Of a stretch of 31,226 bases of DNA, positions 7,207 through 31,226 are shown piece by piece. Under the pieces are notes generated by a model. It did not search any database and was not told the origin of the DNA. It was given only the letters and a program-made list of their open reading frames with translations. Source of the DNA: a virus; the IMG/VR virus record IMGVR_UViG_3300005264_001197, positions 1 to 31,226 of that record. One strand, 5' to 3'. Position numbers and translations under genes: made by a program. The first letter of the stretch is position 1, and each line of letters begins with the position of its first letter.

Positions 7207-7241
7207 TGATAAAATAAAAAATGCCGAGGAGGAACAACATA

Positions 7242-12517: not shown

Positions 12518-15349
12518 ATGGGCATATTTGATAAAGATTTAGTTTTACCAGGAGCAACTACAGAAATAGTCTTAGAAGGTAACAAAACTTATGATACTAG
12601 CTTATTTGGAACAACAGATTCAATCGCTATTATAGGTACTGCGTTCAACGGTCCTGTCGGAGTTCCAATACCTATCTACGCACCAGAACAAGCAGAATAT
12701 GTATTTGGAGGAATTTTCGATCCCTTAACAAGACAAGAAGCCACTCTTGTAGCTTCTGTGCAAGACGCTTGGAATGCTGGAGCTAGAACCATTTATGCTG
12801 TTCGTATGTCAGGCATATCAATTCATAAGGATTTTCAATTAGCTGTAGACACTACTTTGAAACTTAGAGTTTCTGGTATTTATCCATCGAACATGAATAA
12901 AGAAGTATGTATGTTATTTAGTGACGAAATGAATGTCATGCAAATCAAGATATTCAAACCAGCTAAAAGTGCTTCTTTAACAGAAAGAAAACAAGGATTA
13001 GTAGAAAATGAAACAGATATACTTGTTTCAACTATAGAATTAACAAATGGACAAGGATTAGATAAAAACTCTCCATTGGTAGATTTAATAAATCTTGTTA
13101 ATACAAATGCTTCTAACAACGTTTTAACATTGTCTATTGTTGATGCTGAAGGAAATGATGTAACATTAAACTCAATCGAAGCTAAAACTTTGTCAATAGG
13201 TGAGATGTTTACTGGAGCTTATTTCATAGGAAGAAATAAAACAAAAGGTTCTTCTAACACTGATTTGTCATGGGAGTTAGTCGATGAAAGCAATAAACCT
13301 TTTGAGAAGTTTGATAGATCATTAATAAAAAAATTAAGATTCAATACTGACATAAATCAAGATTTACCTATTGTCGGAATAGATTTTGACTTTTTAAATG
13401 TTCCTGGTAAATTAGATGAAGTATTTGAAAAAGATTCTATCGATTACGAAGAAGTGGATATAACTAATTTTGAGATGTATAAAAAAATGGGTTCTGGATT
13501 TGCTCAAACTGCAAAAATAGTAGAGAAGAAGCCTGGTGTTTTCAGAAGAATTCCAACTGCAACAGATGATGTTAATAGGGTAATGCCTTTAGAAAATGGA
13601 ATATATTCTATGTTAGAAAATTTAAATACTAATTATAGAACTATAGTTGCCCCTGCTGATGCAACTATAAAAGGAAAACTTCCTAAAAAAGAAGAATTTA
13701 AAATAGCATTAGGCCAATCACAATCTATACTAAATGACAATATAACGGTTGTTGCAAAAATTGATAAATCTGATTTATCAGCAATAAAACAATATAAATT
13801 CGAATTTGAAGCTACTCAAACTGATATAGATCTAGAAACAATTAAGAATAGTCTTTATACTGAAAAAGTCATAAAGAAGATTCCAGGTTTTATTGATTTA
13901 ACAGATTCTGATACAAAAAATAGCATCAAATCAATGCCTGATGGAACATTATTTATATCTAATGAAACTTTATATAGAACTGAAGAAGGTACAGCTAAAA
14001 AATTAAATATAGCTACAGAAAATCCAGAATTAATAGATAAACTTTTTGTAGTTGAAGACAATTTATCTTCAAAGTTATATAAAGGAGAACAAAGCGATAC
14101 TACAATTACATTCAAAGCAATTATAGATAACACAACAGTTATTAATAAAGAATATTTATTAGTTGAAAATGATGGAATTGTAATAGTAACAAGAACATCT
14201 GATATTACTCCAATAGGATCTCTTTCAGATATTTTTGACAATGAAGATGAAGATGAACTTACATTAGTAAGTACTCAAAGTTTACATGGAATTGTTAATA
14301 CGATAAGAATTAAATCTAACACTCTTGACTACACAACTTTAGAAGAATTTGTTGATATACTAAATGAACATCAAGATTTAAAAAAATATTTCACATTCAC
14401 AGTAGCTCAAGATGCTTTTGCAAAACGTTATAATGACATATATACAGAAGATGAAGATTCGTTAATAGATAATATAACTAAAAAAGCAATAAGTTCATCT
14501 TTTGAAGATAAAAAAATCACATATGATACAAATCTATATATTCCATACACAACTACAGACAATTTTGCAAGACAATTAGCACAACATTGTACTTATACGA
14601 GTCTAAAAACAGCACCAACTCATGGTATAATTGGTACTAGCAAATTAATAAATGTAGGATTAGATACTGTTGATGAAACTGTTACTAAAATTTTAAATAA
14701 AGATTTTGATTTGTATGCTAAAAAGAATAATGGAAAGAGCATGTTAAATGCTGAAAACTTACCTTATCCACTTGGTAAAGATCTATCAATAGTAGTATCT
14801 CAATATACTATGTCTAAGAATGGATATACTTTCGTATCAAATGGTGCAGCAGGATATGCAGGCATGGTTTCTGTCTTACCTCTTGATCAATCATCTACAA
14901 ATCAACCAATACAAATACCAACTCCTTCATTCGAGCTTAATAAAACACAACTTCAAAAATTAACAAAAAAAGGATTCGTCACTTTTAAACAAAGCTATAC
15001 GAAAAATTGGGTTGTTACAGATGGTACAACTATGGCTCCTTCAGATTCAATATATAGAAGATTATCAGCATCAAGAATTTCTTATTCTATTGAAGAAGTA
15101 ATAAGAGCAGCAGTTGAACCATTCATTGGTAAACAAAACCATCTAGCAAATAGAAATTCAATGCAAACAGCTATTAAATCTTCTTTAAATAAATTAGTAG
15201 GAAAAATAATCGAAGCATATGATTTCTCAATGATCATTGATTATTCAAAAGAAAAATTAGGAATTATTGAAATCGATTATAACATCATACCTATCTTTGA
15301 AATTAGAGAAGTTCGTAATAGAATATCTATTTCAGAAGACTTAAAATAA
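12518..15349 (+). CDS. Tail sheath protein, unusually large
   Basis: The 943-residue protein is the contractile tail sheath. The N-terminus (LPGATTEIVLEGNKTYDTSL, DSIAIIGTAFNGPVGVPIPI, EYVFGGIFDPLTRQEATLVA, VQDAWNAGARTIYAVRMSG) is the classic sheath start. The C-terminus holds the conserved core: GYTFVSNGAAGYAGMVSVLP, KKGFVTFKQSYTKNWVVTDG, SIYRRLSASRISYSIEEVIR, and the final strand region IIEIDYNIIPIFEIREVRNR. The sheath surrounds the tube and contracts to drive it into the cell. At 943 residues it is much longer than T4 gp18 (about 659). The middle third (roughly residues 150-650) is beta-rich with Glu/Lys/Thr and probably forms extra outer domains. The SD AAAGGAGG precedes ATG 12518, and a strong hairpin follows the gene. 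Confidence 0.9.
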   Translation: MGIFDKDLVLPGATTEIVLEGNKTYDTSLFGTTDSIAIIGTAFNGPVGVPIPIYAPEQAEYVFGGIFDPLTRQEATLVASVQDAWNAGARTIYAVRMSGISIHKDFQLAVDTTLKLRVSGIYPSNMNKEVCMLFSDEMNVMQIKIFKPAKSASLTERKQGLVENETDILVSTIELTNGQGLDKNSPLVDLINLVNTNASNNVLTLSIVDAEGNDVTLNSIEAKTLSIGEMFTGAYFIGRNKTKGSSNTDLSWELVDESNKPFEKFDRSLIKKLRFNTDINQDLPIVGIDFDFLNVPGKLDEVFEKDSIDYEEVDITNFEMYKKMGSGFAQTAKIVEKKPGVFRRIPTATDDVNRVMPLENGIYSMLENLNTNYRTIVAPADATIKGKLPKKEEFKIALGQSQSILNDNITVVAKIDKSDLSAIKQYKFEFEATQTDIDLETIKNSLYTEKVIKKIPGFIDLTDSDTKNSIKSMPDGTLFISNETLYRTEEGTAKKLNIATENPELIDKLFVVEDNLSSKLYKGEQSDTTITFKAIIDNTTVINKEYLLVENDGIVIVTRTSDITPIGSLSDIFDNEDEDELTLVSTQSLHGIVNTIRIKSNTLDYTTLEEFVDILNEHQDLKKYFTFTVAQDAFAKRYNDIYTEDEDSLIDNITKKAISSSFEDKKITYDTNLYIPYTTTDNFARQLAQHCTYTSLKTAPTHGIIGTSKLINVGLDTVDETVTKILNKDFDLYAKKNNGKSMLNAENLPYPLGKDLSIVVSQYTMSKNGYTFVSNGAAGYAGMVSVLPLDQSSTNQPIQIPTPSFELNKTQLQKLTKKGFVTFKQSYTKNWVVTDGTTMAPSDSIYRRLSASRISYSIEEVIRAAVEPFIGKQNHLANRNSMQTAIKSSLNKLVGKIIEAYDFSMIIDYSKEKLGIIEIDYNIIPIFEIREVRNRISISEDLK

Positions 15350-15438: not shown

Positions 15439-16104
15439 ATGGCAAATTCAGTAGAAAAATATACTAAGACATATACAACTTATAGTGGATGTGATATCGT
15501 TCCGACTTTTAATGGCGTAACGATAGGAGAACTACAAGCAATCACGTACAGTGTATCTCGTGAGAAAGCTCCTGTATACACAATGGGATCAGCCGAACCT
15601 CGTTCTTTTTCTAGAGGAAAAAGAGGTATCGCAGGTAATCTTGTTTTTACAATATTTGATAGAGATGCATTACTAGATGAATTTGCAGACTATTTGAATT
15701 CTGAAGGTACAACAGGAGTTCAAAAATTTGTAGCAAATACAGGTTCAGATGCAAGGTTCAAATCTATAGAAGATTGGAACGAAGAAATGACAGGACTTAT
15801 TAGACCTGATGGCAGTGATACATCTTCAAATGATTTAAACAACGTAAGTAAATTAATTACACGTTCAAAAGCTAAATATGCTGATGAAATATTACCTTTT
15901 GATATCACAATAACTTTTGCAAATGAATATGGGCAAAGAGCAGTATCTGTTATTTATGGTGTTGAATTATTAAATGAAGGTTCAGGTTTTTCTATTGATT
16001 CAGTAACTACAGAAAAAGCTTATACTTTCGTCGCTAGAAGCATAGATAGTATGAAAAGTCTTAATGGAGATGGTCAAGACCATAAAATTACAGCAACATT
16101 TTAA
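15439..16104 (+). CDS. Tail tube protein
   Basis: The 221-residue protein fits the inner tail tube: a small beta-barrel subunit that stacks in rings and is driven through the host envelope. Key segments are SGCDIVPTFNGVTIGELQAI, SREKAPVYTMGSAEPRSFSR, then GKRGIAGNLVFTIFDRDALL and, near the end, EILPFDITITFANEYGQRAV and EKAYTFVARSIDSMKSL. It directly follows the sheath gene, which is the standard order. A 40-residue loop in the middle (roughly 90-135) is polar and probably flexible. AAGGAG precedes ATG 15439, with strong hairpins on both sides, consistent with separately tuned high expression. Its core sequence recurs at the N-terminus of the next gene product and, more distantly, in the one after. 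Confidence 0.85.
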   Translation: MANSVEKYTKTYTTYSGCDIVPTFNGVTIGELQAITYSVSREKAPVYTMGSAEPRSFSRGKRGIAGNLVFTIFDRDALLDEFADYLNSEGTTGVQKFVANTGSDARFKSIEDWNEEMTGLIRPDGSDTSSNDLNNVSKLITRSKAKYADEILPFDITITFANEYGQRAVSVIYGVELLNEGSGFSIDSVTTEKAYTFVARSIDSMKSLNGDGQDHKITATF

Positions 16105-16120
16105 CTAATATCATACTAAA

Positions 16121-16159
16121 AATAAGCGAGAAGAATATTCTTTTTCGCTTATTTTTTTT
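16121..16159 (+). terminator. Intrinsic terminator after tail tube gene
   Basis: AATAAGCGA (16121-16129) pairs with TCGCTTATT (16145-16153). The inner palindrome AAGAATATTCTT extends the stem, and a run of T continues to 16159. This is a textbook Rho-independent terminator. The GAGAAGAATATT core is shared with the hairpin at 7185-7206 upstream of the capsid gene. Confidence 0.85.
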
Positions 16160-16182
16160 AAAAAAAGAAAGGGGGAATTATT

Positions 16183-18657
16183 TTGAGTGATATGCAATAT
16201 AAAAGTTTTTCAGGTACAGATATGATAGCAACTTGTCATTTGCCTACTTCAGATGGACAAGTAGCCACTCACTACTTAGCTTCTTTACAATCTTTTTCTT
16301 ATTCTTGCCATACAAATAGAATCCCAATAAGAAATATTGGTTCTATAAATGTAAGAGATTATGTATCAGGACCAAGAACTATTGCAGGTTCGCTAATTTT
16401 TACAGTTTTTAATAAGCATTTCGCATATGAAATTATAGATAGTATTAATTCCAATTATAAAACAAATAAATCTATTTTAGTTGATGAGTTACCTCCTTTT
16501 GATGTTACAATTTCTCTAGCAAATGAATATGGAGCAGCTTCAAGATTAGCTGTATATGGAATACAACTAGTCAATGAAGGACAAGTAATGTCTGTAAATG
16601 ACATCTACACGGAAAATACCTATCAATACGTCGCTAGAAGTATTGAATATTTAAATGATTCAACAGATTATTCATTACCTAATAACACTTTAGAAGAAAC
16701 ATTCTTAAATGAAGAAATTAACAACTCTCAAATAAGAAGTGAAGATGCAACTAATGCAATTACTGAAATATCAAAAACTCAAACAATACCAAGTTATATT
16801 AATACAAAACTACATAACGAAGTTTTGCAGTGTTCTCCAGCAATCGAATCAAGAGGAACTAATTATATAAAAGTTTCAACAAATAATTTCGATATAAAAA
16901 CAGTTGTATGTGAAAGCAGTATTGACAATAAAATTATAAAAACTGAATTCAATAAATATGGAATAGCTATAATAACTAATTTGCTTCCAGATACATTATA
17001 CACTATTAAACTGGTTACAGAACAAGATAAATTATCTATACCAATTTCAGTAACCACATTAAAAGATAAATATTATTTATATGATAAACTAACTAATTTA
17101 CTATTTAATGATATAACTATGTCATCTCAAGATGAAAATTTTTTTAACATAATAATGGAAGAAGCAAAAAAACAAAATGAAGATAATTTAATGAAAAATA
17201 TTTTTACAATAAAACAACAAAATTCTATTAAGTTAAAAAATGCAATTGCTAATAATGAAGATAAAATTATTATAGATACAATAATTAAAATCAATAGTTT
17301 GTATGAAACATTATTACCTTATGCTTTTAAAGTTCAACTTGATGAATTAAATTTGTTAAATAAAAACAATATTATAAAAATTCCTCTAATTGAAAGTATA
17401 GATAAACGAAAATTTCGTGCAGATGATAAAACTGAAGAAATTATAATATATAAATTTGAAACAGATTTGCAAGTAGAAGAAAATATAAATATTTCTAATT
17501 CGCAATCGAAAGTATTTTCTCTCAATAAAAATCAAGAAGGTTTATATGCTTTAAAAGCATTAGCTGCAGATAATGCTTCTTGCTTATTGTATTGTTATAC
17601 ATTAGACGCTACAAAAAAAAGAGAAGAAATCAATAAAATGAATTTATATAAAACAGAAAAAGCAACGAAACTAGATAGAATCTATAATAATAATAAAATG
17701 AGGATAGATTTGTATAGTGAAAATGCATTAGAAACATCAGAGATGATTTGGTATTTTTATCATGAAAGAAATAAGAATATTTTTCTTGATATGCCTATTA
17801 TAAAAGAAGCAGATTTTAATTCTTCTGATAATTATTTAATTATTCAATCTGACTTTAGCAATAATTTTAAAACTGTTCCTGACAAACTATATTTATGTTT
17901 CACTTCGTCAACAGATATCAACAATAAAGCACCTATTTATCGAAGAAAAATACAAGATATAATATCATCAATAAAATACTCAGGAAAAGATATATTATTT
18001 TTAGAACAAGATATATATATTTTTTGGTATGAACTAAATGGAGTAAGAGTATCTGATGTAACTACTTTTAATATTCAAAATTCTAAACAATTCGGAACAT
18101 ACAATGAAAATGTGAGAATATGTATCTTAGATAATTATGTTGCTATGCTTAATCAATATATTGACAAGACTACAGACACAACGAAATTAAATGATATTTT
18201 TGAAATGTTAATTAATTTTGAATTGTTAACACCTTACACAATGCCTGCAAAAATATTTGAATTTATTATGACATCTAACAATATTTCTAATAAAACAGAT
18301 TTAATTTTTTCTATTTTATACTCAATAAATAAAGTAAATAAATATGATTCTGAAGAACTAGTTTATTTTAACGAACTAGAATCTAAAGAAAAATATAAAT
18401 ATTTAACAATAGGAAATGAAAAGAGTTCATTAGTTTTTGATACTAAACAAAAAAATATTATTATAAAAACATCGAGAATATTAAAATCTGGAGAGATACA
18501 GCAAGAATTAGTTGAAATAGATAATGAATCTACTATGGTTATTCCTATAAATAAAGATAATCAGTTTATAATAATTCAAATATTTGATATTAAATCTACA
18601 TTAAAAACTCAAACTTTCTTCTTCGATATAACAAATAGACAAATCAAGTTAATATAA
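16183..18657 (+). CDS. Tube-like domain fused to large extension (baseplate/tail protein)
   Basis: The first 165 residues are clearly related to the tail tube encoded just upstream: INVRDYVSGPRTIAGSLIFT aligns with EPRSFSRGKRGIAGNLVFTI, and PPFDVTISLANEYG ... YGIQLVNEGQ ... YQYVARSIEYL aligns with PFDITITFANEYG ... YGVELLNEGS ... YTFVARSIDSM. About residues 216-295 look like an FN3-type domain (ITNLLPDTLYTIKLVTEQ). The remaining 500 residues are Asn/Lys/Ile-rich and unrecognised. The start is TTG 16183 with SD AAGGGGG at 16169-16175; no nearer ATG precedes residue 4. In T4, gp48 and gp54 are tube-fold proteins that cap the baseplate and start the tube, so a tube initiator or modified tube subunit is likely. 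The family relation is solid, the role inferred. Confidence 0.7.
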   Translation: MSDMQYKSFSGTDMIATCHLPTSDGQVATHYLASLQSFSYSCHTNRIPIRNIGSINVRDYVSGPRTIAGSLIFTVFNKHFAYEIIDSINSNYKTNKSILVDELPPFDVTISLANEYGAASRLAVYGIQLVNEGQVMSVNDIYTENTYQYVARSIEYLNDSTDYSLPNNTLEETFLNEEINNSQIRSEDATNAITEISKTQTIPSYINTKLHNEVLQCSPAIESRGTNYIKVSTNNFDIKTVVCESSIDNKIIKTEFNKYGIAIITNLLPDTLYTIKLVTEQDKLSIPISVTTLKDKYYLYDKLTNLLFNDITMSSQDENFFNIIMEEAKKQNEDNLMKNIFTIKQQNSIKLKNAIANNEDKIIIDTIIKINSLYETLLPYAFKVQLDELNLLNKNNIIKIPLIESIDKRKFRADDKTEEIIIYKFETDLQVEENINISNSQSKVFSLNKNQEGLYALKALAADNASCLLYCYTLDATKKREEINKMNLYKTEKATKLDRIYNNNKMRIDLYSENALETSEMIWYFYHERNKNIFLDMPIIKEADFNSSDNYLIIQSDFSNNFKTVPDKLYLCFTSSTDINNKAPIYRRKIQDIISSIKYSGKDILFLEQDIYIFWYELNGVRVSDVTTFNIQNSKQFGTYNENVRICILDNYVAMLNQYIDKTTDTTKLNDIFEMLINFELLTPYTMPAKIFEFIMTSNNISNKTDLIFSILYSINKVNKYDSEELVYFNELESKEKYKYLTIGNEKSSLVFDTKQKNIIIKTSRILKSGEIQQELVEIDNESTMVIPINKDNQFIIIQIFDIKSTLKTQTFFFDITNRQIKLI

Positions 18658-18673
18658 AAAAGGATGTGATGAA

Positions 18674-19657
18674 ATGGACGCTTCTAAAATAGGAATACCT
18701 ATATCTTACGACCAGTATGATAATAAACTGAGAAACACACCTTTGTTTTACAATACTTATAATGATCAGTTGAGTTCATTAAATACAAGATATTTTTCAA
18801 GTGCAGATGCTGAAATATGGTTTAATGATGAAATTTTCATTGATAACGTCGTTCAAATTACATGGCAATTGCAACAAAATGTTCAACCTTTAATCGGGTT
18901 TAATTCATATACTATTGATGATTATTCTATTGGATCTAGACTTATAACAGGAACTTTTGCTGTTAATTTTACTAAAGCAAACTACTTAGAAGAAGTTTTA
19001 AGTAAGTTGCGAACAATAACTATGATTCAAGCTGATTCAACAGAATACAATGATAATGAATATTTAGACTCTACAGAAACTCCTTTATGGAAAAAGAATT
19101 TTGATATAGTCGTATCTTATGGTGGAACAAAAACACAAAATGCAATTGCTTCTACTTCAATGACATTAGTGGATGTTCAAATAACAGGTTGCTCACAACA
19201 AATTGATTCTAATGGAATAGCAATAATTGAAAATTATTCTTTTATGGCAAAAGATATTCAACACGCTCCTGTTGACAAAATAGCATCAAATCAAGTTACT
19301 CCTGAAACAACAGAAATCATTAATGTTATTGATAGTAGATACTATGAAGAAATAGTAAGCTCCGTTTCAACAGGTTATACTCGAAATATAATAAATAATA
19401 TTATAGAAATGAAATTAAATAGTTTATATGAAATAACAAGTGTAAAATGGAGTCCAATCATCAATACAAAAAAAGTATTTTATTCTATGAACAAAAATGG
19501 AGATAAGTGGACTTCAATAATTCATGAAGAAATTAAAGATGATATACAAGACTATATACAAACAACAGGTTCAATTACAGCAATGTTACAAATAAAATTG
19601 CTTATAAATAATAAAGAAATTATGCAAGAAATAAAAACAACAATTGTCGCAAAATAA
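18674..19657 (+). CDS. Third tube-like domain protein
   Basis: This 327-residue protein appears to share the tube fold with the two genes before it. DNVVQITWQLQQNVQPLIGF, YTIDDYSIGSRLITGTFAVN, FDIVVSYGG, then VDVQITGCSQQIDSNGIAII and ENYSFMAKDIQHA follow the same order as the tube core (strand, Y-G-R-IaG-l-f, PFDI.i, ygv.l..eG, y.fvArsi). The similarity is weaker than between the first two. The last 100 residues form a separate small beta domain (SLYEITSVKWSPIINTKKVF). With the preceding gene it would make a pair comparable to T4 gp48/gp54, which join tube to baseplate; this is inference. An SD-like AAGGATGTGA precedes ATG 18674. The gene ends 98 bases before the tail chaperone genes. Confidence 0.55.
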   Translation: MDASKIGIPISYDQYDNKLRNTPLFYNTYNDQLSSLNTRYFSSADAEIWFNDEIFIDNVVQITWQLQQNVQPLIGFNSYTIDDYSIGSRLITGTFAVNFTKANYLEEVLSKLRTITMIQADSTEYNDNEYLDSTETPLWKKNFDIVVSYGGTKTQNAIASTSMTLVDVQITGCSQQIDSNGIAIIENYSFMAKDIQHAPVDKIASNQVTPETTEIINVIDSRYYEEIVSSVSTGYTRNIINNIIEMKLNSLYEITSVKWSPIINTKKVFYSMNKNGDKWTSIIHEEIKDDIQDYIQTTGSITAMLQIKLLINNKEIMQEIKTTIVAK

Positions 19658-21143: not shown

Positions 21144-24100
21144 GTGTCTAATAGAAGGGAACAAGATTCTTCTAACTCTATCAGAGCTATAGGAGAGGCT
21201 GCTTTAGCTGTTGGGGCTGGAGTAGCCTTATTCTATAGGAGTGGAGGATCGCAATTACTAGAAAGAGGATTAAGAAAAACAGATAGATTCTTAGGTGAAA
21301 TACAAAATGATATTGCTGGACGAGCTATAAAAGAATTTGACGCACAAGAAATAAAGAGACTTTATAAAAAACATGTTACTTCAGCAGATAGCTCTTGGAA
21401 TAAATTAAGTGATGAACTTGATGATAAAATCCAACTTTTTACTGGTAAAGATGATCTTATAAGTGAAATCGTAAAACGAACTCAACTCTTACGAAATCCC
21501 TCTCAAATGCTTGCTTCTGAATTCAATGCAACTTTAAAAAATCAATTAAAACAAAATTTAGCAACATCTCTAAATATCACCGATGAAAATGCTTTAGGAA
21601 AACTACATTCCTTTGTTGATGATGGATTTACAAATTTCTATGAAAAAGTAATAAAATATTCAGACGGACAAAATTTATATTTTAATGAAGATTTTCGAAA
21701 TAAACATTTTAGTAATAATTTATTCAGTACAGAGCAACAAGACGTAATGATGCAAGCTTTGAATGAAGTAATGAATATCAAAGCAAATAGAAAAAAACAA
21801 TTTACTGAAAATAATATGATGCTAGCAAATAATATTGCAAATACTATTATTACCGATATAGAAGGATTAAAAAAACGTTTTGGAAAAAAAGGAGACAAAA
21901 CTTTAACAGAACAAGCATTAGGTTTTTCTAGAGTTACTTTGCAAGAATTAATAGACAATGAAGACAAAATAATAAATTCAGAAGTGGTTACTAGAAGTTC
22001 TAATGGAGATATGATTACAGAAAATGCTATTGAAATAGCTAAAAAAGCAATTGAAAAGAATCCTGATTTAGGAGATATTTACGTTGGGAGTCATATAAGA
22101 AAAGATAATTTAGGTAGAATTATCTCTGTTACAAAGACAAAAGAATACAAACAAAAAATAGCAAATAGTTTTGCAAATACCCTTCCTGGAAAGCTATTAA
22201 AAACTAGAGATATATTAAACATAAAAGAAGCTCCTTCCCTTCATTTTTCCCCATCAGGAACTATAGATCCTATATTAGCTGCCCATGAAAGAAGAAAAGC
22301 AAAGATAAATAATACAAAATCATCAACTTCTAAAATAAGCAATAGTTATGTCCGCATTCATGATAAAACATATAAAATAAATGGTTCAGAGTTAGAACAT
22401 ATAAAAGAATTTGATAATTTATATTTAGTTTCTGGAAAACATGGATCTTTACCTAGATCTATTAAAATGTTAGCAGGAGATGCAAATGTAAAAAACAAAA
22501 CAGGTTTTCTCGGCTGGGCTGATATAGGAACAACTGAAACACCTACAAAGTTCACAGAGTTTCGTTCTATTTTTACAAAAACAAATGCAAATTCTGATTG
22601 GGGCCGTAACTTAATTAACAATTTACTTTATAAAGATATTCCTGAAAATATTTCAAATGATGAAGCATTTAAAATATTTGAACAATTAAAAAAGACAAAT
22701 AAATTTTTTAATGAAACAACAAGCCAGTTAGACATATTAACAATAAAACAACTTAGAAAAGAAGCATCTAATAACTCAAAAAAATATTTTGAAGTATTAG
22801 AAATGCAAGATGATGAAATGTTTAATTCTATAGCTAAAATGTGGAGTCAAAATGATGGCTTTAAAAATGAAGATTTAAATGTACTTATAAAAAGATATAT
22901 TTCTAATCCGCAAAAAGCTCTCGAAGCTGTTAGTATAATAAGTGATAAAGGAGTAGGAATATCAGAAACAAAAAGCCTTAATTTTTCTGATATGATAAGA
23001 AAAGAAGTCGCAAAAGAAGCTTTTATTAAAGAAATGGAAGGTCCTAACGGAAAAAATTCTATAATAAATCTATTCAATCGTGCAGGAATTAAAGGTAGAA
23101 AATTAGACGAAGTGAAATATCTTGCTAATTATACTGTTTTTCAAAGTCAAACACTCTTACCTAATACTCCAGATAAAGGAGTTAGACATATCGAAAGTAT
23201 ATTCGATTCAATAGAAGCTGCAAACAAACTATTTAAATCAGATGTAAATAGTGTATATGATAATATAGATGCACTTTTCGTAAAACAGTTTCGACAAAAT
23301 ATGATTAAGATGTCTAAAGAAAAAGCACCTTTATTACAAAAGGGAGTTCAAGCAGCAGAATTAGATATGATGGATGGATTTGTTTACGGTAATCATATCC
23401 ACTTGCAAAAATCAGTAAGTATATTAGAAGCAATAAATAATAAAACAAAAAGAAAAGCTTACTTCAAGCAATTGACAGCTGGTAGAGATAATATGGCAGA
23501 TGTTACAACTGCGACTATGTTTCCTTATTTTTCTGCTATGAGATTAGTTCAACCTCTAGATTCTATAGGACTTGGTTTTTCGGTAAAAAACACAAGAAAT
23601 GTTAAAGACGTAGCTTTTAATATAATGTTAAAACGAGTCCTACCTGTTGCAGGAGGATTAACAGCTTTAAGCTATGTTGATTATAGGGCTAAAGCATATA
23701 CAGGAACAGGATTAAAAGGAGCCGCTGCAAACTCACTTGCTAGATTAGATATTGGAACTAGAAAAATAGCGAGTGCAACAGGAATAGGCTATATTCTAGA
23801 TCATGATAGAGATGTAAATCCTATAATGCAATACTGGTTTGGAAAAGATTATCAGAATGGAGAAGAACGTAGACAATATTATGAAAATGGATACACTCCT
23901 GTTCGACAAGGTAGATATTGGTCATTCGGATCAGCTTCAGAATTCAGAGGAGGAAAAATCAATTACTTTCAACCTAATATGTTAAAACGTGCTCATAGTG
24001 ATTATTCTGATATAGGGATTTATGGCTCAACAAAAGATAAATGGGCTCATTCTTGGATTCCTACACCGAGACATCCGTTTTCTACAATAAGAAGACTTGC

Positions 24101-27100
24101 AGATCCATATTATTTAGAACGTAAACATTATCTTGATAGACCTTATGCTGTTACAGGTAAAGCTTTTCAAGAAGGAACTCCGTGGGGAGCTATTTTAAAT
24201 CCTACTGTTGGAAAAATAATAAAGCCAGAAAGAAAAATGCATCAAAGAGAATTACAAGGAACAACTATAGATGTAAGAGATTTAATAGCAAGACAAAATG
24301 AAATTCAAAAAGTTAAAGCAAGCAATAAAAAAGGACTAATACGTATAGATAATACAGGGTTTACTCCTACTTCTTTCATTCCTGATCAAGCTCCTAACGA
24401 CAGTCAAAGAATCATTAATCTAAAAGTAGGTAATGGACAAATAAAAGCAAATTCTTTAAATTTAAAATATCATGCACCTACAATGACCAATGAATTATCA
24501 GAACAAATAATAATGGACAATGCTACAAACATTTCAAATAATATACAACATATGACTTATGAAATACCTATCATAGGAGAAGCTATTGATAAAACATTGT
24601 CTTTAAGAATGTCAACAGATAGTATCCGAAAAGTCAATGCTGCAATTTATGAAAAAGCTAATTCTCAACCTGAAGGTATGATAACAGAAGATTCTATTTT
24701 TAAAACTAGAAATTATGCTGGGAGTAGTGTGTTACAAAACGCAGAAGCAGTTGCTGATTTAAGAACTATAGAATCAGGACATAATTATCTAAGTGATATT
24801 AGTTATTCAGCAAAAGAGTTATCAGGTATTTATGGATTTGCTTTTGAATCGTTATTCCCAAACAAACAAAAATATACTATGCAAAATGCAGGAAGAATTG
24901 ATTCTTATTCACGAAAATTCTGGGATTCTTCAGTCGGAGGACTTGGTGGAGAATTCATGGAAATTGCTAGACGTTTCTTTCCTCATGAAGATCATTCAAT
25001 AACAAAAATTAATAATATACGAAACACAATGCCTAGTTGGATGCCAGAGAAATTCAGATATGGAGATCCTTATGAATCAATTCCTAAAGGGGAAATGAGA
25101 CTTCCAGGTAAAGGATATACTGATTTATATAAATTACATCCAGACCAGTACGGGAAGTATGGAGCTTTTGATAGAATGAAAATCCTAGGAGATATCGCAC
25201 CATGGTCAAGAGAATATAAGTATTGGAGAGATATTGCAAATCATTCAATCAAAGATCCTTATTTAAAAAAACAAATGCAAGGGATTAAAGATAGAGTTAT
25301 AAAACAATCAAAACAACATGATTTTTATCCATATAGATTTTTAGAATCAAAAGTAAAAACAATAGATGCTATCGTAGAAAACGTAACTCAAGGTGGCTCA
25401 TTCAATATCGTCGGAAGTAATGAAAAATATAAACTAGCAGGCATATCAGTAAAAGGAGATATTAGTCAATATTTACAAGATGGAATGCATGTTAGATTAG
25501 AAGTTGATGAAAATCAATATTCTGGGAAGAATCAAGATGGTAGTATAAATGCAAATGTAGAAACGTTTAATGGAAAGTTTTCAACAAAACTAAATAAAAA
25601 AATGTTAGATGATGAAATGGCAGTTCTTAGAAATGATAGCAGTGCAGCAGGAGTTCATGCTAGATTTTCAGATTTTCAAATATTAAGAGGTAAATTTTAT
25701 GAAACAATAGCTCATGCTCAAATACCATATATTCATGATAAATTTTTAAGAGTTAATAGCCCGTTAGAATCATATAAAAATGAACAAACTTATGGCACTA
25801 GCTATTCTAGTTGGGGACATCCAATACAAAGTTTTGTTTTACCATCTTTATATCGAGAATGGGAAACAGGGTATGCTGGTCAAAAAATAGGATTAGGTGC
25901 TATGATGTTATCAAATCATTTATCAAAAACTGGAGCTTCTCGAACTGCAAGAGCAGGAGCTAATATATTGGTAGCTGCAACTAATCGTTCAGCAGTAATT
26001 GGAGGAACAATTGGAGGGCTATTAAAAATTGGTAACAAAAATTGGATTTCAAAAGGGGCAAAATTAGGAAGTGCTGTCGGATTTGCAGGATACACTATTA
26101 CAAGATTAGATCATCCTATTGAATCAGCTCTGAATTTTGGTAAATTAGGAGCAGTAATAGGAAAACAACTATACCATACTCCTGGGAAGGGAGCTCTTGT
26201 AGGAATAGCAACTGGACTTGCACTATCAGGAACACAAAGTACTTATTTTGATAAAAACAAAACTTTGAAAAAATGGATACCTAAAAGCACCCGTAAAAAA
26301 TGGGAAATAGAAGAATATTATGACAGATTAAAATATATTAAATATACAGGGCTTTACAATAAAGCAGCTAGATTAGCAAAACAAAAAGAAGGCGTTGATA
26401 TAAAACGTCTTGTAAATAAATATGAATACAAACAAAAAAAAGACGAAAAAGAAAAAAGAAAATTACTTTATGAAAAAAGCAAGATTGAACATAGTAATAT
26501 ACAAGAGAAAAAGAAAGCCAACTTACTTAATACTATAGATTCAAAACTTCAAGCATTAACTATAATTCCTCAAACTCTTGAAGCAGGTGAATATACTAGA
26601 GCAGCATTAGCTTATAAACAAGCAGCAGAAGCTACTATCTATGGATTACAAGAAGATGCTTCTTGGGCTCAATTATTTAGAGCTGTGCCTAAAAATGAAA
26701 GAGACTATTTAATAGAGTTTTCTAAAGAAAGAGATCCAAAAAAACAAAAAAAGATACTAGAAGTTATGTCTCCATATCAAAGAAAAGTACTCAAAACAGC
26801 TTGGAAACAAGAAACAGAAGAACTTGAAAGTAATGCATCTTTTTTTTCTAGACATAAAATACCTACTTTGAATTGGGGCGGTTGGAATCCTTCTGTTGAT
26901 CTAGATAACGTAAAAATAAAAACTATTGAAAATGAAGGAATGATGTTATCTGACTTTGGTATATATGAATCTCAATTAAATGCTCCTGAAGTCATTTTAG
27001 CTCCAGAAATTGATAATTTCGACGAAGGAAGTTCTGGATTGAAACTCCAAACAAATTTAATTTCTGCTCTTCAAGGATATGGTCTTTTAGGTGTTAATGT

Positions 27101-27215
27101 TAGTATAGAACCTACAGTAGATCCAGGTATACATGTAGTAACAGATATAGTTAGAACGACTCAATACAAAATAAAAGAAACTTTGAATAGTTTTATAGGA
27201 AATATGTTTTTTTAA
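21144..27215 (+). CDS. Giant tape-measure-like virion protein
   Basis: The 2023-residue protein follows the tail chaperones, the standard place for the tape measure protein, which sets tail length and is ejected into the host. By the usual 1.5 angstrom per residue its length would match a tail near 300 nm (inference). It starts at GTG 21144 with GGAG at 21130-21133. A hydrophobic stretch lies at 14-32 (AIGEAALAVGAGVALFY). Residues 835-1010 are rich in aromatic and Arg residues (QYWFGKDYQNGEERRQYYEN, YYLERKHYLDRPYAVTGKAF, NPTVGKIIKPERKMH). Residues 1400-1500 resemble a degenerate staphylococcal-nuclease-like barrel. Gly/Ala-rich membrane-prone segments lie at about 1600-1700, followed by Lys-rich coiled coil. 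The aromatic region is not typical of tape measures, so it may instead be another large internal virion protein. Confidence 0.6.
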   Translation: MSNRREQDSSNSIRAIGEAALAVGAGVALFYRSGGSQLLERGLRKTDRFLGEIQNDIAGRAIKEFDAQEIKRLYKKHVTSADSSWNKLSDELDDKIQLFTGKDDLISEIVKRTQLLRNPSQMLASEFNATLKNQLKQNLATSLNITDENALGKLHSFVDDGFTNFYEKVIKYSDGQNLYFNEDFRNKHFSNNLFSTEQQDVMMQALNEVMNIKANRKKQFTENNMMLANNIANTIITDIEGLKKRFGKKGDKTLTEQALGFSRVTLQELIDNEDKIINSEVVTRSSNGDMITENAIEIAKKAIEKNPDLGDIYVGSHIRKDNLGRIISVTKTKEYKQKIANSFANTLPGKLLKTRDILNIKEAPSLHFSPSGTIDPILAAHERRKAKINNTKSSTSKISNSYVRIHDKTYKINGSELEHIKEFDNLYLVSGKHGSLPRSIKMLAGDANVKNKTGFLGWADIGTTETPTKFTEFRSIFTKTNANSDWGRNLINNLLYKDIPENISNDEAFKIFEQLKKTNKFFNETTSQLDILTIKQLRKEASNNSKKYFEVLEMQDDEMFNSIAKMWSQNDGFKNEDLNVLIKRYISNPQKALEAVSIISDKGVGISETKSLNFSDMIRKEVAKEAFIKEMEGPNGKNSIINLFNRAGIKGRKLDEVKYLANYTVFQSQTLLPNTPDKGVRHIESIFDSIEAANKLFKSDVNSVYDNIDALFVKQFRQNMIKMSKEKAPLLQKGVQAAELDMMDGFVYGNHIHLQKSVSILEAINNKTKRKAYFKQLTAGRDNMADVTTATMFPYFSAMRLVQPLDSIGLGFSVKNTRNVKDVAFNIMLKRVLPVAGGLTALSYVDYRAKAYTGTGLKGAAANSLARLDIGTRKIASATGIGYILDHDRDVNPIMQYWFGKDYQNGEERRQYYENGYTPVRQGRYWSFGSASEFRGGKINYFQPNMLKRAHSDYSDIGIYGSTKDKWAHSWIPTPRHPFSTIRRLADPYYLERKHYLDRPYAVTGKAFQEGTPWGAILNPTVGKIIKPERKMHQRELQGTTIDVRDLIARQNEIQKVKASNKKGLIRIDNTGFTPTSFIPDQAPNDSQRIINLKVGNGQIKANSLNLKYHAPTMTNELSEQIIMDNATNISNNIQHMTYEIPIIGEAIDKTLSLRMSTDSIRKVNAAIYEKANSQPEGMITEDSIFKTRNYAGSSVLQNAEAVADLRTIESGHNYLSDISYSAKELSGIYGFAFESLFPNKQKYTMQNAGRIDSYSRKFWDSSVGGLGGEFMEIARRFFPHEDHSITKINNIRNTMPSWMPEKFRYGDPYESIPKGEMRLPGKGYTDLYKLHPDQYGKYGAFDRMKILGDIAPWSREYKYWRDIANHSIKDPYLKKQMQGIKDRVIKQSKQHDFYPYRFLESKVKTIDAIVENVTQGGSFNIVGSNEKYKLAGISVKGDISQYLQDGMHVRLEVDENQYSGKNQDGSINANVETFNGKFSTKLNKKMLDDEMAVLRNDSSAAGVHARFSDFQILRGKFYETIAHAQIPYIHDKFLRVNSPLESYKNEQTYGTSYSSWGHPIQSFVLPSLYREWETGYAGQKIGLGAMMLSNHLSKTGASRTARAGANILVAATNRSAVIGGTIGGLLKIGNKNWISKGAKLGSAVGFAGYTITRLDHPIESALNFGKLGAVIGKQLYHTPGKGALVGIATGLALSGTQSTYFDKNKTLKKWIPKSTRKKWEIEEYYDRLKYIKYTGLYNKAARLAKQKEGVDIKRLVNKYEYKQKKDEKEKRKLLYEKSKIEHSNIQEKKKANLLNTIDSKLQALTIIPQTLEAGEYTRAALAYKQAAEATIYGLQEDASWAQLFRAVPKNERDYLIEFSKERDPKKQKKILEVMSPYQRKVLKTAWKQETEELESNASFFSRHKIPTLNWGGWNPSVDLDNVKIKTIENEGMMLSDFGIYESQLNAPEVILAPEIDNFDEGSSGLKLQTNLISALQGYGLLGVNVSIEPTVDPGIHVVTDIVRTTQYKIKETLNSFIGNMFF

Positions 27216-27233: not shown

Positions 27234-28313
27234 ATGAAAAAAGCAAAACAATACAAAGATATGATAAGCTGGTTATTTATAATGCTTTTGATATTTCAGG
27301 TTTTTTTAATGACTAACATTTCAGATCTTAGTGAAAAGTTTGAAGCTGATTTTGAATTAGCTAAAGATATTGAAATAGCGACAAAAGAAGCTTTGATAGA
27401 AGAAACTATTCGACCTCAAATGCGATTAATGCTAGCAGGTATTAGACAATCTTGGATAAATTACTTGCAAATCCATCCTGAAGTTGAATTATTATTAAAA
27501 GATTCAGAAGGTAGATATATTTATCAAAATGAAAATAATAAGATGATTCATTATGATAATTCAACAATGTTTCGAAAAGTTAGAGCTGACAATTGGTATG
27601 ATATATATGATAGAACAACTTTAAATCTTATTTGCGAAAAAGTACGCCCTCAATGGAATAGAGAAACAATTATTGATATATTCAACATTATAGCTGTTCC
27701 AACAAAATCATTCGGTCCAACTAGCAGTGTTTTAATATATGATGCATACAATGGGGAAATTTTAATAGATAATTCAAGAATATATACTTCATCTAATAAT
27801 AATTCCCCTAATAACACTACCTATATGTCTTATTTGTATCTTTCTCCTAACAACAAAAATCCTGAAGCAACAAAAAAAATCATTGAAGATGAAATATTGC
27901 AACGTTATGATTCAATTCGAGGAACGAATATAATCTCATTTTTTTATGAGCCTATGAACATGGGAAACGAAGCAAGTAATTTTGAAAAATATCCATTAGG
28001 TCAATATAATAGAGAGTTTCAAGAAAAAATAATATTGCCTTATGAATCAGTTTCGCTTGATAATGAAGCTATGCAAATCGCTATTTTATTAAGTGCAAAA
28101 GAATCAGAAATAATTCAAGGATATGATAATATATTAAAACAAAACATTGACTTGCAAAATAGTTTACAAGAAACTATTAGAATAGGAATTCTGACTCCTA
28201 TTCTTAGTGTAGCTATATCATTGATAACTATATTTCTTGCAATGTTTGGTTTGAACACCTATGCACACTTTTTTTACAAACACACAAAACATTTAACGAA
28301 AGAAGGGGAATAA
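27234..28313 (+). CDS. Two-TM membrane protein with large external domain
   Basis: This 359-residue protein has a membrane segment near each end: residues 11-28 (ISWLFIMLLIFQVFLMTN) and about 318-344 (ILTPILSVAISLITIFLAMF). The N-terminal Lys residues and the Lys/His-rich tail suggest both ends are cytoplasmic, with about 290 residues outside. The external part starts and ends helical and contains VLIYDAYNGEILIDNS at about 166-181, a pattern like the Cache/PAS-type sensor domains of bacterial receptors. No kinase or HAMP domain follows. It lies 18 bases after the giant gene with SD AAAGGTGGAG, and 18 bases before the holin-like gene. It may assist DNA entry, exclude other phages or regulate lysis; the role is unknown. 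The topology is well supported. Confidence 0.6.
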   Translation: MKKAKQYKDMISWLFIMLLIFQVFLMTNISDLSEKFEADFELAKDIEIATKEALIEETIRPQMRLMLAGIRQSWINYLQIHPEVELLLKDSEGRYIYQNENNKMIHYDNSTMFRKVRADNWYDIYDRTTLNLICEKVRPQWNRETIIDIFNIIAVPTKSFGPTSSVLIYDAYNGEILIDNSRIYTSSNNNSPNNTTYMSYLYLSPNNKNPEATKKIIEDEILQRYDSIRGTNIISFFYEPMNMGNEASNFEKYPLGQYNREFQEKIILPYESVSLDNEAMQIAILLSAKESEIIQGYDNILKQNIDLQNSLQETIRIGILTPILSVAISLITIFLAMFGLNTYAHFFYKHTKHLTKEGE

Positions 28314-28331
28314 AAAAGGCGGTGAAGCAGT

Positions 28332-28676
28332 ATGAACTTTTTACTAGAGATGCTGCGACTATCTGTTATACAGATCATCATAGTTGCATATGCAGGAGCC
28401 TTATTTGGAGAAATGAATAAACGAATAGTTTCAGATGAACCTATTCGTTTTATAGAATACCTTGTTTCTTGGATAAGTTCTGGCTTTAGTGGCACAATGA
28501 TTGGGTTGTTTTTAAAAGGTTTAATAAACGATATTTCTAATCCATACATTGCGTTAAGTGGAGCAGGTTATGCTGGTTATGCAGGACAAAAATTTTCTTC
28601 TCAACTTATGAAGAAAGCCTTATTGTCTCTTATACAGCAAAGTGAAAAACTTCTAAATGACAATAAAGATAATTAG
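28332..28676 (+). CDS. Holin-like small membrane protein
   Basis: The 114-residue protein has two or three hydrophobic segments: residues 7-28 (MLRLSVIQIIIVAYAGALFG), 42-65 (YLVSWISSGFSGTMIGLFLK) and a Gly/Ala-rich stretch at 70-88 (NPYIALSGAGYAGYAGQKF). It ends in a charged tail (SEKLLNDNKDN). Length, topology and charged C-terminus match phage holins, which open the membrane to end infection. The Gly/Ala-rich third segment recalls LydA-type holins. No endolysin gene is visible in the window, so the lysis role is not confirmed; a membrane helper for the neighbouring two-TM protein is an alternative. The SD AAGGCGGTGA precedes ATG 28332. Confidence 0.5.
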   Translation: MNFLLEMLRLSVIQIIIVAYAGALFGEMNKRIVSDEPIRFIEYLVSWISSGFSGTMIGLFLKGLINDISNPYIALSGAGYAGYAGQKFSSQLMKKALLSLIQQSEKLLNDNKDN

Positions 28677-28956: not shown

Positions 28957-29015
28957 TACTAATAAAAAAAAGCTTACAACATTTATCTTGTAGTAAGCTT
29001 TTTTTTATTAGTATT
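28955..29015. terminator. Long perfect bidirectional terminator
   Basis: Bases 28955-28977 and 28993-29015 are perfect inverted repeats of 23 bases around a 15-base loop. The GC-containing AAGCTTAC part is nearest the loop, and runs of eight A on the left and eight T on the right flank it. It can end transcription from either side. It starts in the stop codon of the coiled-coil gene and so closes the tail operon. Confidence 0.9.
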
Positions 29016-29044: not shown

Positions 29045-31226
29045 ATGTCTTTGTCTTCTCATGATATAAAAAATAATGTTAAAATTAACAAGAAAAGAGC
29101 TGGTTTTAATAAATCTGCAATTACACAAACATTAAAGAATCTAAATACCTCTACATATATAGAAACAGGATATTCAGATGCTTTAAATAATATTGCCGAA
29201 AAAGCAACAAAACAAAAAAATTTACCAGGGTTACTTCCTTTATTAGAAAATATCAATAATCAAGCTTTTTTTCAAACATTACATTCATTCAGTGATATAT
29301 CTCCAACGAAACAAACAGGTAAAGAATTATTACAACAAGTAATAAAAAAATCAGAAAATATAATAATAAAAAAAATGCCACTTGATACAGACATTATATT
29401 TCAAAATTCTAATTTAAACAATTCTACGAGTATACCCAGAATATTAAAAGCTGCTGAAAAATTCAAAGACATTCTCGATCAAGGCGGGGAATATTTATCT
29501 TTTGATACAGAAACTTTAGCAGGACAAAATGGAGCAGGAATACAGGTGTTAGATACTATAACAGAATATTCTTTTTCACTTCATAATAGTTCAGGGAAAG
29601 TAATCGATGAAATCAGAAACATAGTAGGATTCAATGAAAAAGAAGTAAACTATTGGCGAAACGAATTAGAAAGAATTGGACGAACTGGTCCTTTAAATAA
29701 TAGAGATCAAGTAATTCTTGATAGATTTAGTTTAGTCGGACATAGCAAAGTAAGCATAGAAGATATCGCAGGAGATGGATCTCAATGGGTTTTTACTAAT
29801 ATGCCTACTGAACAAGAAATTGCTAATACAAAATCTTCTCTTGCAGCTGCATATCGAGGTGTAGATTTGTATGAAAAAATAGGATCTGCACAAAGCAAAA
29901 CAGGTTTTTACAAAATAAGAGAAGATATGAAAAAAGTAGTTGGTATTATTAATGACGAAAAAACTGGTATAGTTGGACATAATAGTATAGAATACGATAT
30001 TCCTATCTTAAATCAATTTATTGCATCTCCAAAGACAGCTAAGAAAATAGGATTAGATAGTTATCTTCATATTGATACAACTAATAACACTCATTTAGAT
30101 ACATATTCATTAAAACGTTTTCTATCTGATATTCTTGGAAAAGATCATTTAGGTATTGATAATTCAAAATCAGACAAAGGACTTAATACATTAGAGCATA
30201 TAATGAAATCTACTCATCCTGAACTTTATGAAGGAAGACTTGCTCATATTGCATACGATGATGAACAAATAATGGCACAAGGATTTTTCCATGAAACTAT
30301 AAAAGGTAGTAATGAAACCTTATTTGATAGAATGTTTTCTCAACTTCAAACAGTAATGAAAGACTCAGCTAATGCTCCTATTCATAAATATAAAGGAGCT
30401 AATGAACAACTATTCTCTGTTAACTCTACTTATATGATAAATAATTTTAACAAAAAAGGTGGATTAGGATTTGTTTATGATCCTGTTTCTGCTACATACA
30501 AAACACTTAATGGGTATGAAGTGGGACAAAATGGAGTAAAAAAACAAAGTTTCAATCAAGTTGGTCCAAAAAAAAGAGGACTTTATACTCGACAAGTTGT
30601 AGCTTTAGATACAAAACAACTAAAAACATACTTTCAACCAGACTCTCCAGAATTAAAAACTTATGATAATATGGCCGTTAATGGTATGTACATGATAATA
30701 CATACACCTATTACCAGCCAAAAAGAGAGTGTCGAAACTTTAGGTGCAAAACAAATATTCACATTTCATGAAAGCTTAGATTCTGTAGCTTATATGTTAG
30801 GACAAGGTGAAGTAGTCGGAGAATACAATAATAAAGCAAAAAATACAAATGTTAGATACTTAGAAGATTTTTCAGAAATAAAAAACCATAATGTCAAAGT
30901 TGCAAAAGTAGATGCAAAAACAGGTGCTATAACTGTAAAAAAGGGAACAATTGATGATTTCGCTGAAATGAGTCGTCAAAAAATGTTCAATGATTCTGCT
31001 GCTAGATGGGTTAGAAATATAGATTATAAAAAATATAGCAAATTAAAATCACAATATGCTGCTATAGACAATACAATAAAAAAAATAACTCCAGCTGAGT
31101 ATTCCAAGAGAATAGCTCAAAATCTACCGTTAATAGATACAACACAAGGAGAGTTGTTTGATGCTTTTAAATTCTATTCTTTTGGTTTAAAAGAGCATAC
31201 AATTGCAACTGAATCGATTATTAATA
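29045..31226 (+). CDS. Large protein with DnaQ-like (DEDDh) exonuclease domain, 3' end outside window
   Basis: The frame is open from ATG 29045 to the window edge: 727 codons with no stop. All exonuclease motifs are visible in order and spacing. Motif I is Asp154 and Glu156 in YLSFDTETL. Motif II is VGHNSIEYDIPIL, with His312-Asn313 and Asp318. Motif III is AHIAYDDEQ, with His401 and Asp406, the H-x4-D that marks the DEDDh class. Enzymes of this type remove nucleotides from 3' ends of DNA or RNA. The domain (about 145-420) is wider than usual, with a 100-residue insert between motifs I and II. The first 140 residues and the 300 after the domain are unrecognised and mixed helical/charged. AAAGGTGTGA is the SD. 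The gene follows a terminator, so it probably has its own promoter; TATAAT at 29015-29020 is a possible -10 box. Confidence 0.8.
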   Translation, partial: MSLSSHDIKNNVKINKKRAGFNKSAITQTLKNLNTSTYIETGYSDALNNIAEKATKQKNLPGLLPLLENINNQAFFQTLHSFSDISPTKQTGKELLQQVIKKSENIIIKKMPLDTDIIFQNSNLNNSTSIPRILKAAEKFKDILDQGGEYLSFDTETLAGQNGAGIQVLDTITEYSFSLHNSSGKVIDEIRNIVGFNEKEVNYWRNELERIGRTGPLNNRDQVILDRFSLVGHSKVSIEDIAGDGSQWVFTNMPTEQEIANTKSSLAAAYRGVDLYEKIGSAQSKTGFYKIREDMKKVVGIINDEKTGIVGHNSIEYDIPILNQFIASPKTAKKIGLDSYLHIDTTNNTHLDTYSLKRFLSDILGKDHLGIDNSKSDKGLNTLEHIMKSTHPELYEGRLAHIAYDDEQIMAQGFFHETIKGSNETLFDRMFSQLQTVMKDSANAPIHKYKGANEQLFSVNSTYMINNFNKKGGLGFVYDPVSATYKTLNGYEVGQNGVKKQSFNQVGPKKRGLYTRQVVALDTKQLKTYFQPDSPELKTYDNMAVNGMYMIIHTPITSQKESVETLGAKQIFTFHESLDSVAYMLGQGEVVGEYNNKAKNTNVRYLEDFSEIKNHNVKVAKVDAKTGAITVKKGTIDDFAEMSRQKMFNDSAARWVRNIDYKKYSKLKSQYAAIDNTIKKITPAEYSKRIAQNLPLIDTTQGELFDAFKFYSFGLKEHTIATESIIN

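Follow-up and report, generated by a model that had tools for sequence, protein, structure and literature searches.

The stretch of DNA analysed here, called the window throughout, is a 31226-base virus fragment (IMG/VR record IMGVR_UViG_3300005264_001197) that carries a tailed-phage structural module on the + strand and ends inside a giant gene. The last open reading frame (ORF) of the window, at positions 29045-31226, is the 5′ part of that gene, the end of which lies outside the window since the IMG/VR fragment stops within the ORF. Profile comparisons indicate that this ORF carries a real DEDDh (DnaQ-like) exonuclease domain, and by comparison with its relatives it appears to be the N-terminal exonuclease region of an exonuclease-RNA polymerase (RNAP) fusion. 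The parts of the gene that bear on this reading are the following:

29045-31226, + strand: 5′ part of the giant gene, with an ATG start, 727 codons and its 3′ side open at the contig end; exonuclease region
29462-30349, + strand: predicted DEDDh (DnaQ-like) 3′-5′ exonuclease domain, residues about 140-435
29504-29512, + strand: motif I, D154-x-E156
29981-29998, + strand: motif II, N313...D318
30245-30262, + strand: motif III, H401-x4-D406

The exonuclease domain

A first-pass annotation made from the letters of the window had singled out D154, E156, D318, H401 and D406 as the residues of a DEDDh exonuclease, and all five were confirmed: together with N313, they are invariant in 7/7 aligned sequences (L002, a close relative introduced below, stands outside this 7-sequence alignment, and an earlier 6-sequence alignment did not have motif III aligned in every row). 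A chance match of the motifs was ruled out because an independent profile, built from six divergent relatives and excluding both the window and L002, picks out residues 124-435 of the window protein at E 2.9e-12 in a search of 47 proteins. The six relatives are Bacillus phage KLEB27-3 gp034, Moorella phage MTATph1 CDS27 and the homologues at the loci L069, L014, L015, and L020. The same profile recovers L002 at E 1.8e-7, and the next best of the 47 proteins scores 0.17. The domain is also, among the three parts of the window gene compared, the most constrained at the protein level, with a dN/dS between window and L002 of 0.078 (241 codons), as compared to 0.199 for the preceding part and 0.136 for the following part.

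Searched against the PDB, the 7-sequence profile gave a best E of 3.2e-5, and 26 of its 28 matches (E up to 10) are exonucleases or DNA polymerases by name; three are named “exodeoxyribonuclease III,” and the two of them with alignments listed align at a DLETTG motif I. The Pfam family RNase_T scores above its cut-off in the MTATph1 homologue, and the window protein scanned by itself gave no significant match in Pfam or PHROGs. The AlphaFold model of the exonuclease is of low confidence (pLDDT 40.5), and Foldseek returned nothing below E 0.001 with it, Exonuclease I coming first at E 0.0096, mixed with unrelated chains. With VIA-align and the same low-confidence model, all 50 matches listed are DnaQ-fold proteins by title, Exonuclease I being first at Z 7.2 in a range of 5.2-7.2, all below 8, a level under which a match may reflect merely a common arrangement. 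The first-pass annotation had staked its claim on a DnaQ fold in residues 145-420; the 6-relative profile, the PDB search and VIA-align each returned matches of that kind, and the PDB matches to DEDD exonucleases (best E about 3e-5) point to a DnaQ (RNase H-like) fold, for which metal-dependent 3′-5′ exonuclease activity is predicted.

Relatives and the RNA-polymerase-type region

What the first-pass annotation missed is the region with an RNA-polymerase-type signature into which the protein continues in relatives. The exonuclease and an RNAP motif lie in one uninterrupted frame in five relatives (2300-3258 amino acids, aa), and in all five of these intact fusions the exonuclease is N-terminal on the RNAP chain:

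L069, 2300 aa: uninterrupted fusion
Bacillus phage KLEB27-3 gp034, 2434 aa: uninterrupted fusion
L014, 3258 aa: uninterrupted fusion
L015, 3134 aa: uninterrupted fusion
L020, 3148 aa: uninterrupted fusion

One close relative of the window was found, L002, whose product and the window protein are identical at 89% of 672 aligned residues. Its exonuclease ORF is followed, with a change of frame each time, by ORFs of 229 aa and 1821 aa, and we infer that the window gene continues into an RNAP region as L002 does. The interval 10001-12683 of L002 holds both frame changes as well as a deletion described below, and the window contig stops within about 15 bases of the first frame change. When whole giants were compared with hhalign, the exonuclease part was significant. 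At the other end of the chain, one hydrophobic segment lies 115-121 residues before the end in L002, L069, and L020 and was absent at the same threshold from KLEB27-3, L014, L015, L059, and L060; the last 70 residues are common to much of the subfamily, L002 being found at E 0.025 only.

The rear motif consists of R-x-P followed 34-57 residues on by D-x-D-x-D (of the DxDGD type), and, where an ORF has the strict pattern, falls 69-82% of the way along the chain. This RxP...DxDxD loop, which we equate with the Arg that binds substrate and the three catalytic Asp residues in bacterial beta′, is present in L002, L069, L014, L015, L020, and KLEB27-3. In a 14-sequence alignment, of which 9 members were picked for the motif and 5 by profile score, every sequence has the P and the three D, and the R is nearly invariant, at a mean column identity of 21%.

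The wider set of relatives was gathered with the 2023-aa protein encoded at 21144-27215 of the window as bait, which yielded 57 viral loci and 2 genome loci. Forty of the 57 viral loci were used, the other 17 being near-copies of used loci or having contig ends too near the gene. L069 is a phage-like locus whose source contig is binned as Acholeplasmataceae; the genome locus L070, in which ordinary bacterial genes surround an 80-residue match, was left unused. For the ORF set, the first ORF of 500 aa or more after the 2023-aa homologue was taken from the 40 loci and from L069, ME3, KLEB27-3, MTATph1, the window and L002; patterns were counted on 43 ORFs (47 minus 4 cut pieces), with the L002 RNAP ORF as one of them, and the profile-searched ORF set omits L001, L003, L006, and L009, which are copies of the window, L002 or MTATph1. 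With the 10 rows left after length filtering, a tree of the 2023-aa homologues does not allow the acquisition of the exonuclease to be dated. Searches that started from the giants themselves returned little: tblastn against annotated phages gave no match with the window protein or the L002 RNAP ORF, a viral scan with that ORF recovered its own contig alone, KLEB27-3 gp034 as a query had no matches, ME3_36 recovered ME3 itself and nothing further, the alignment of L014, L015 and L020 brought back those three contigs alone, and single-sequence Pfam and PHROGs scans of the L002 ORFs gave nothing significant.

In this set, 26 of the 43 downstream ORFs hold the strict pattern, vs. a mean of 0.9 and a maximum of 5 in 200 rounds of shuffling, and 35/43 hold the looser DxDxD; among 202 other ORFs, all 500 aa or longer, the strict pattern occurs in 9, five of which are copies of the L019 downstream ORF. 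An 8-relative profile made without L002 recovers the 1821-aa ORF of L002, with the match placed at the motif and E values of 1e-6 to 4e-5 (4 profile lengths, 913 ORFs). Against the PDB, the 14-sequence profile has RNAP large subunits as 7 of its 8 matches (best E 0.004) and also meets the P23-45 “tape tail measure protein” at 0.25-0.29. A 29-sequence profile, drawn from 33 motif-bearing segments after leaving out L041 and L053 (near-copies), L049 (second DxDxD picked) and L046, and in which the invariance of DxDxD holds by construction, aligns at E. coli beta′ 394-485; the best 60 of its 109 PDB matches are all RNAP large subunits, with a best E of 4e-4. Patterns like DxDxD are common in other proteins, for instance in calcium-binding loops. 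No other DxDxD-bearing kinds of protein appeared among those best 60 of 109 matches. The four PDB matches of a longer profile (11 sequences, 1033 positions) include the P23-45 tape measure twice (0.032 and 0.044) and a phiKZ RNAP subunit (0.075). A PDB search with the whole L015 protein gave nothing, and in one made with the L014/L015/L020 alignment a single unrelated protein was matched, weakly. Judged by its motif and profile matches, the rear part resembles an RNA polymerase, for which a second double-psi barrel with catalytic lysines, a complete polymerase and RNA synthesis are predicted.

The DxDGD region could instead derive from an RNAP domain that has decayed or been repurposed and now serves a structural function in the tape measure, as 17 of the 43 uncut downstream ORFs lack the strict RxP-DxDxD pattern and L012, L018, L028, L033, and L034 show no such motif in either scan. 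We regard such decay as decidedly unlikely, given that the 5 score-picked sequences of the 14-sequence alignment keep the P and all three aspartates in 5/5 cases and the R in 4/5 despite the low mean column identity.

Place of the gene in the tail module

In the window, KLEB27-3 and MTATph1, the exonuclease gene belongs to the tail module; in L069, L014, L015, and L020 it comes after the 2023-aa homologue, and in L069 both giants are directly adjacent, with no genes between them. In KLEB27-3, the homologue is split into gp031 and gp033 and is followed by gp034, annotated “structural protein” (the basis of the label is unstated), and then by a “putative baseplate protein.” In MTATph1, the order is the homologue CDS26, the exonuclease protein CDS27, four other genes and a large protein annotated as endolysin, and in ME3 it is ME3_35 (the 2023-aa homologue), ME3_36 and a gene annotated as baseplate hub. 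The ME3 record relates ME3_35 and the hub to YP_001429636 and YP_001429638 of phage 0305phi8-36, and ME3_36 therefore matches the protein between them, orf146 by numbering. In the part of the 0305phi8-36 paper drawn on here, orf146 is the assigned tape measure, mainly from tail length, and adjoins the hub orf147 (PMC2147016). By synteny with 0305phi8-36 through ME3 and KLEB27-3, the exonuclease/RNAP gene thus appears to occupy the tape-measure place. The giant protein is presumably located in the virion, in line with the “structural protein” label of KLEB27-3 gp034.

These gene orders uphold the first-pass view of a very large protein encoded in a tail module and outside a replication operon. 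Of the tape measure and holin-like genes that it had placed just before, the holin-like gene stands; the large neighbour at 21144-27215 encodes a separate conserved giant, and the assigned tape-measure place is, by synteny, that of the exonuclease gene itself.

A proofreading exonuclease of the phage DNA replication machinery would account for the PHROGs label “DNA polymerase exonuclease subunit” obtained for the MTATph1 domain at E 5e-11, and ME3 is reported, in the available portion of its description, to have its own DNA polymerase (PMC5000817). The tail-module position and the position downstream of the 2023-aa homologue in the genomes listed above speak against such a role, as does the polymerase signature on the same chain in relatives, which is of the RNA-polymerase type rather than the DNA polymerase that the first-pass annotation had named as fatal to its own reading. 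A replicative proofreading exonuclease was rejected on the grounds of the tail-module position and the RNAP-type partner, and we give it hardly any credence. A stand-alone nuclease gene was considered and rejected as well.

The remaining features of the window, all upstream of the exonuclease gene, are as follows:

1791-2087, + strand: GroES-like co-chaperonin gene (phrog_3188, E 5.8e-23), immediately 5′ of the portal gene
2101-4140, + strand: portal
7221-8477, + strand: capsid
12518-15349, + strand: tail sheath
21144-27215, + strand: conserved giant structural protein of 2023 aa, homologous to ME3_35; marker for finding relatives
27234-28676, + strand: two membrane-protein genes (359 aa; 114 aa, holin-like, phrog_6384, E 3.4e-6) between both giant genes
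28964-29008, + strand: terminator-like hairpin with flanking A and T runs, just upstream of the exonuclease gene

The hairpin has a z of about -7, with 0/200 shuffles equally stable, in the window and in L002 alike; it is kept upstream of the exonuclease gene in L002, where its stem is perfect, and a consensus terminator scan of the window gave nothing at 28964-29008. Between tail sheath and first giant, at 15439-19657, three successive proteins, one of them of 824 aa, match a single family, phrog_9206 (labelled major head protein); they are placed like the tail tube proteins of KLEB27-3 and are probable tube paralogues. The C-termini of the 21144-27215 protein and of the exonuclease/RNAP giants look alike by eye over short stretches, a likeness left unsupported by a profile of the C-terminal tail of the giants, which did not list the 2023-aa homologues. 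In KLEB27-3 (L005, 23625-30778), an HNH endonuclease gene, gp032, lies between gp031 and gp033 and is possibly an intron-like insertion.

Proposed role, alternatives and known systems

We consider it probable that the gene encodes a virion RNA polymerase fused to a DEDDh exonuclease, a giant tail-module protein that acts as the tape measure or together with it and carries out the first transcription. The giant chain would comprise an N-terminal exonuclease, a two-barrel (cell-type) single-chain RNAP with its catalytic loop towards the rear, and a C-terminal tail. It would probably form part of the tail, either being the tape measure or accompanying it, and reach the cell before the DNA or together with it, where its RNAP would transcribe the first phage genes; the exonuclease would act beside the polymerase in the entry channel, most simply by trimming the 3′ ends of nascent RNA or of entering DNA. 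The substrate of the exonuclease and the activity of both enzymes are presumed. The first-pass annotation had suggested a virion or injected protein acting on host or competing nucleic acid. Its virion part is plausible; the chain of the relatives continues into an RNAP signature, and the reading therefore shifts to a virion RNA polymerase with a built-in exonuclease, which changes the role.

A separate RNAP of the PF05183 type is encoded elsewhere in the genomes of L014, L015, and L020 (about 210 kb each), i.e., in 3/6 records searched, and was not found in the searched records of KLEB27-3, MTATph1 and ME3. The 14-sequence tail-gene profile finds the PF05183-type RNAP of the L020 genome at E 4.3e-4. 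In these three relatives, the separate second RNAP could take over.

Several observations weigh against a virion RNA polymerase with a built-in exonuclease. The RNAP part lies outside the window, and in L002, the sole close relative identified, the frame changes twice from the exonuclease ORF to the RNAP ORF and residues 275-329 are missing (an in-frame 55-residue deletion), with loss of motif II, such that the exonuclease in the L002 genome, or its assembly, looks broken; the deletion and frame changes may stem from an assembly fault, a population variant or real decay. The hhalign comparisons of the RNAP regions of L002, KLEB27-3, L014/L015/L020 and ME3 are mostly in register and weak (E 0.002-0.3). 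DxDxD was the criterion by which most profile members were chosen, so that its invariance in them follows in part from the selection and the PDB matches draw on the pattern; the top match of the 11-sequence profile is an unrelated designed binder (0.026), and of the three PF05183-type RNAPs the 14-sequence profile missed two. For the L002 RNAP region, AlphaFold gave a model with a pLDDT of 37.4, whose Foldseek matches are noise, and the second barrel was not located there. Finally, ME3 has the RNAP motif and no exonuclease, while MTATph1 keeps the exonuclease (the 1309-aa CDS27) and gives no RNAP match. Since each of these two phages has one part alone, the domains are separable, which weakens the claim that exonuclease and RNAP must act together.

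One explanation differs from the favoured one in the role of the exonuclease alone, namely that the latter is an independent injected effector, directed at host RNA, host DNA or defence signals, which shares the chain only for delivery (a polyvalent protein). MTATph1 fits such an effector, as it keeps the exonuclease and, separately, a protein with the C-terminal tail, with no detectable RNAP; so do the other 39 of the 47 proteins, which have no detectable exonuclease (best E 0.17) and many of which carry the RNAP motif. Multi-domain injected proteins that include virion RNAPs are also described (PMC5512222). On the other side stand the N-terminal place of the exonuclease on the RNAP chain in all five intact fusions and the stronger constraint on the exonuclease than on the other two parts of the window gene compared. 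We therefore hold an independent effector to be a possible but doubtful explanation. In MTATph1 (L004, 30012-37383), a transposase gene follows the exonuclease protein, and the tail of the giant recurs later in a 313-aa protein (E 1.2e-4); the RNAP part may have been lost there.

A bolder version of the fusion would turn the tape measure into a machine that injects, resects and transcribes: once the tail has opened, the N-terminal exonuclease would resect a 3′ strand at the leading end of the incoming linear genome and thereby expose a single-stranded template or promoter for the RNAP on the same chain. We regard this version as speculative and unlikely; if true, it would couple DNA entry to first transcription.

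Under the favoured reading of a virion RNA polymerase fused to an exonuclease, the 26/43 downstream ORFs with the strict pattern point to a virion RNAP at a fixed place of the tail module in a much broader set of phages, among which one subfamily carries the exonuclease on the RNAP chain. Members of this set can be sought by looking for RxP...DxDxD at 69-82% of the length of the large ORF next after the 2023-aa homologue. Early transcription and a role of the tape measure after injection become testable in 0305phi8-36-like phages, with Bacillus phage KLEB27-3 as the isolated member.

Among known exonucleases, E. coli Exonuclease I, TREX2, and oligoribonuclease have a similar fold, as judged by the VIA-align comparison, and the same motif residues as the window domain. 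These are stand-alone enzymes, in contrast to the domain described here, which lies inside a giant phage protein.

The closest likeness on the polymerase side is phage P23-45, in which, according to the portion of the paper drawn on here, a two-barrel virion RNAP lies inside the tape measure, as it does in near relatives, and is paired with a non-virion RNAP (PMC10770324). As in P23-45 gp96, an RNAP signature with a DxDGD motif, here that of a predicted RNAP, occurs in a giant tail-module protein (PMC10770324), and the P23-45 structures 8h2m and 8h2n are matched weakly by our profiles (E 0.03-0.3). The second, separate RNAP of three relatives likewise recalls the P23-45 pair as far as that text describes it. 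On the other hand, the P23-45 RNAP is described there as N-terminal in the tape measure, whereas here the motif lies towards the C-terminus and the exonuclease is N-terminal; the main text on P23-45 mentions neither exonuclease nor nuclease (PMC10770324), and the window phage, set against P23-45, encodes a tail sheath. The orf146 of 0305phi8-36 holds the same place before the hub, with homology by synteny only (PMC2147016, in part), and the sections of PMC2147016 and PMC7824862 drawn on describe it as neither an RNAP nor an exonuclease. The separate PF05183-type RNAPs of three relatives have a counterpart in the QDE/YonO-like RNAP orf99/gp99 of 0305phi8-36, as given in the same sections (PMC2147016; PMC7824862). 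The crAss-like phi14:2 gp66 and YonO are likewise phage single-chain two-barrel RNAPs, and the excerpts used here describe no tail-module exonuclease fusion for either (PMC10770324; PMC7824862). No description of an exonuclease fused to a two-barrel RNAP was found in searches of open-licence PMC papers, judged by listings and passages. A virion RNA polymerase in the tape measure is of a known kind, and the exonuclease on the same chain would be a new variant of it.

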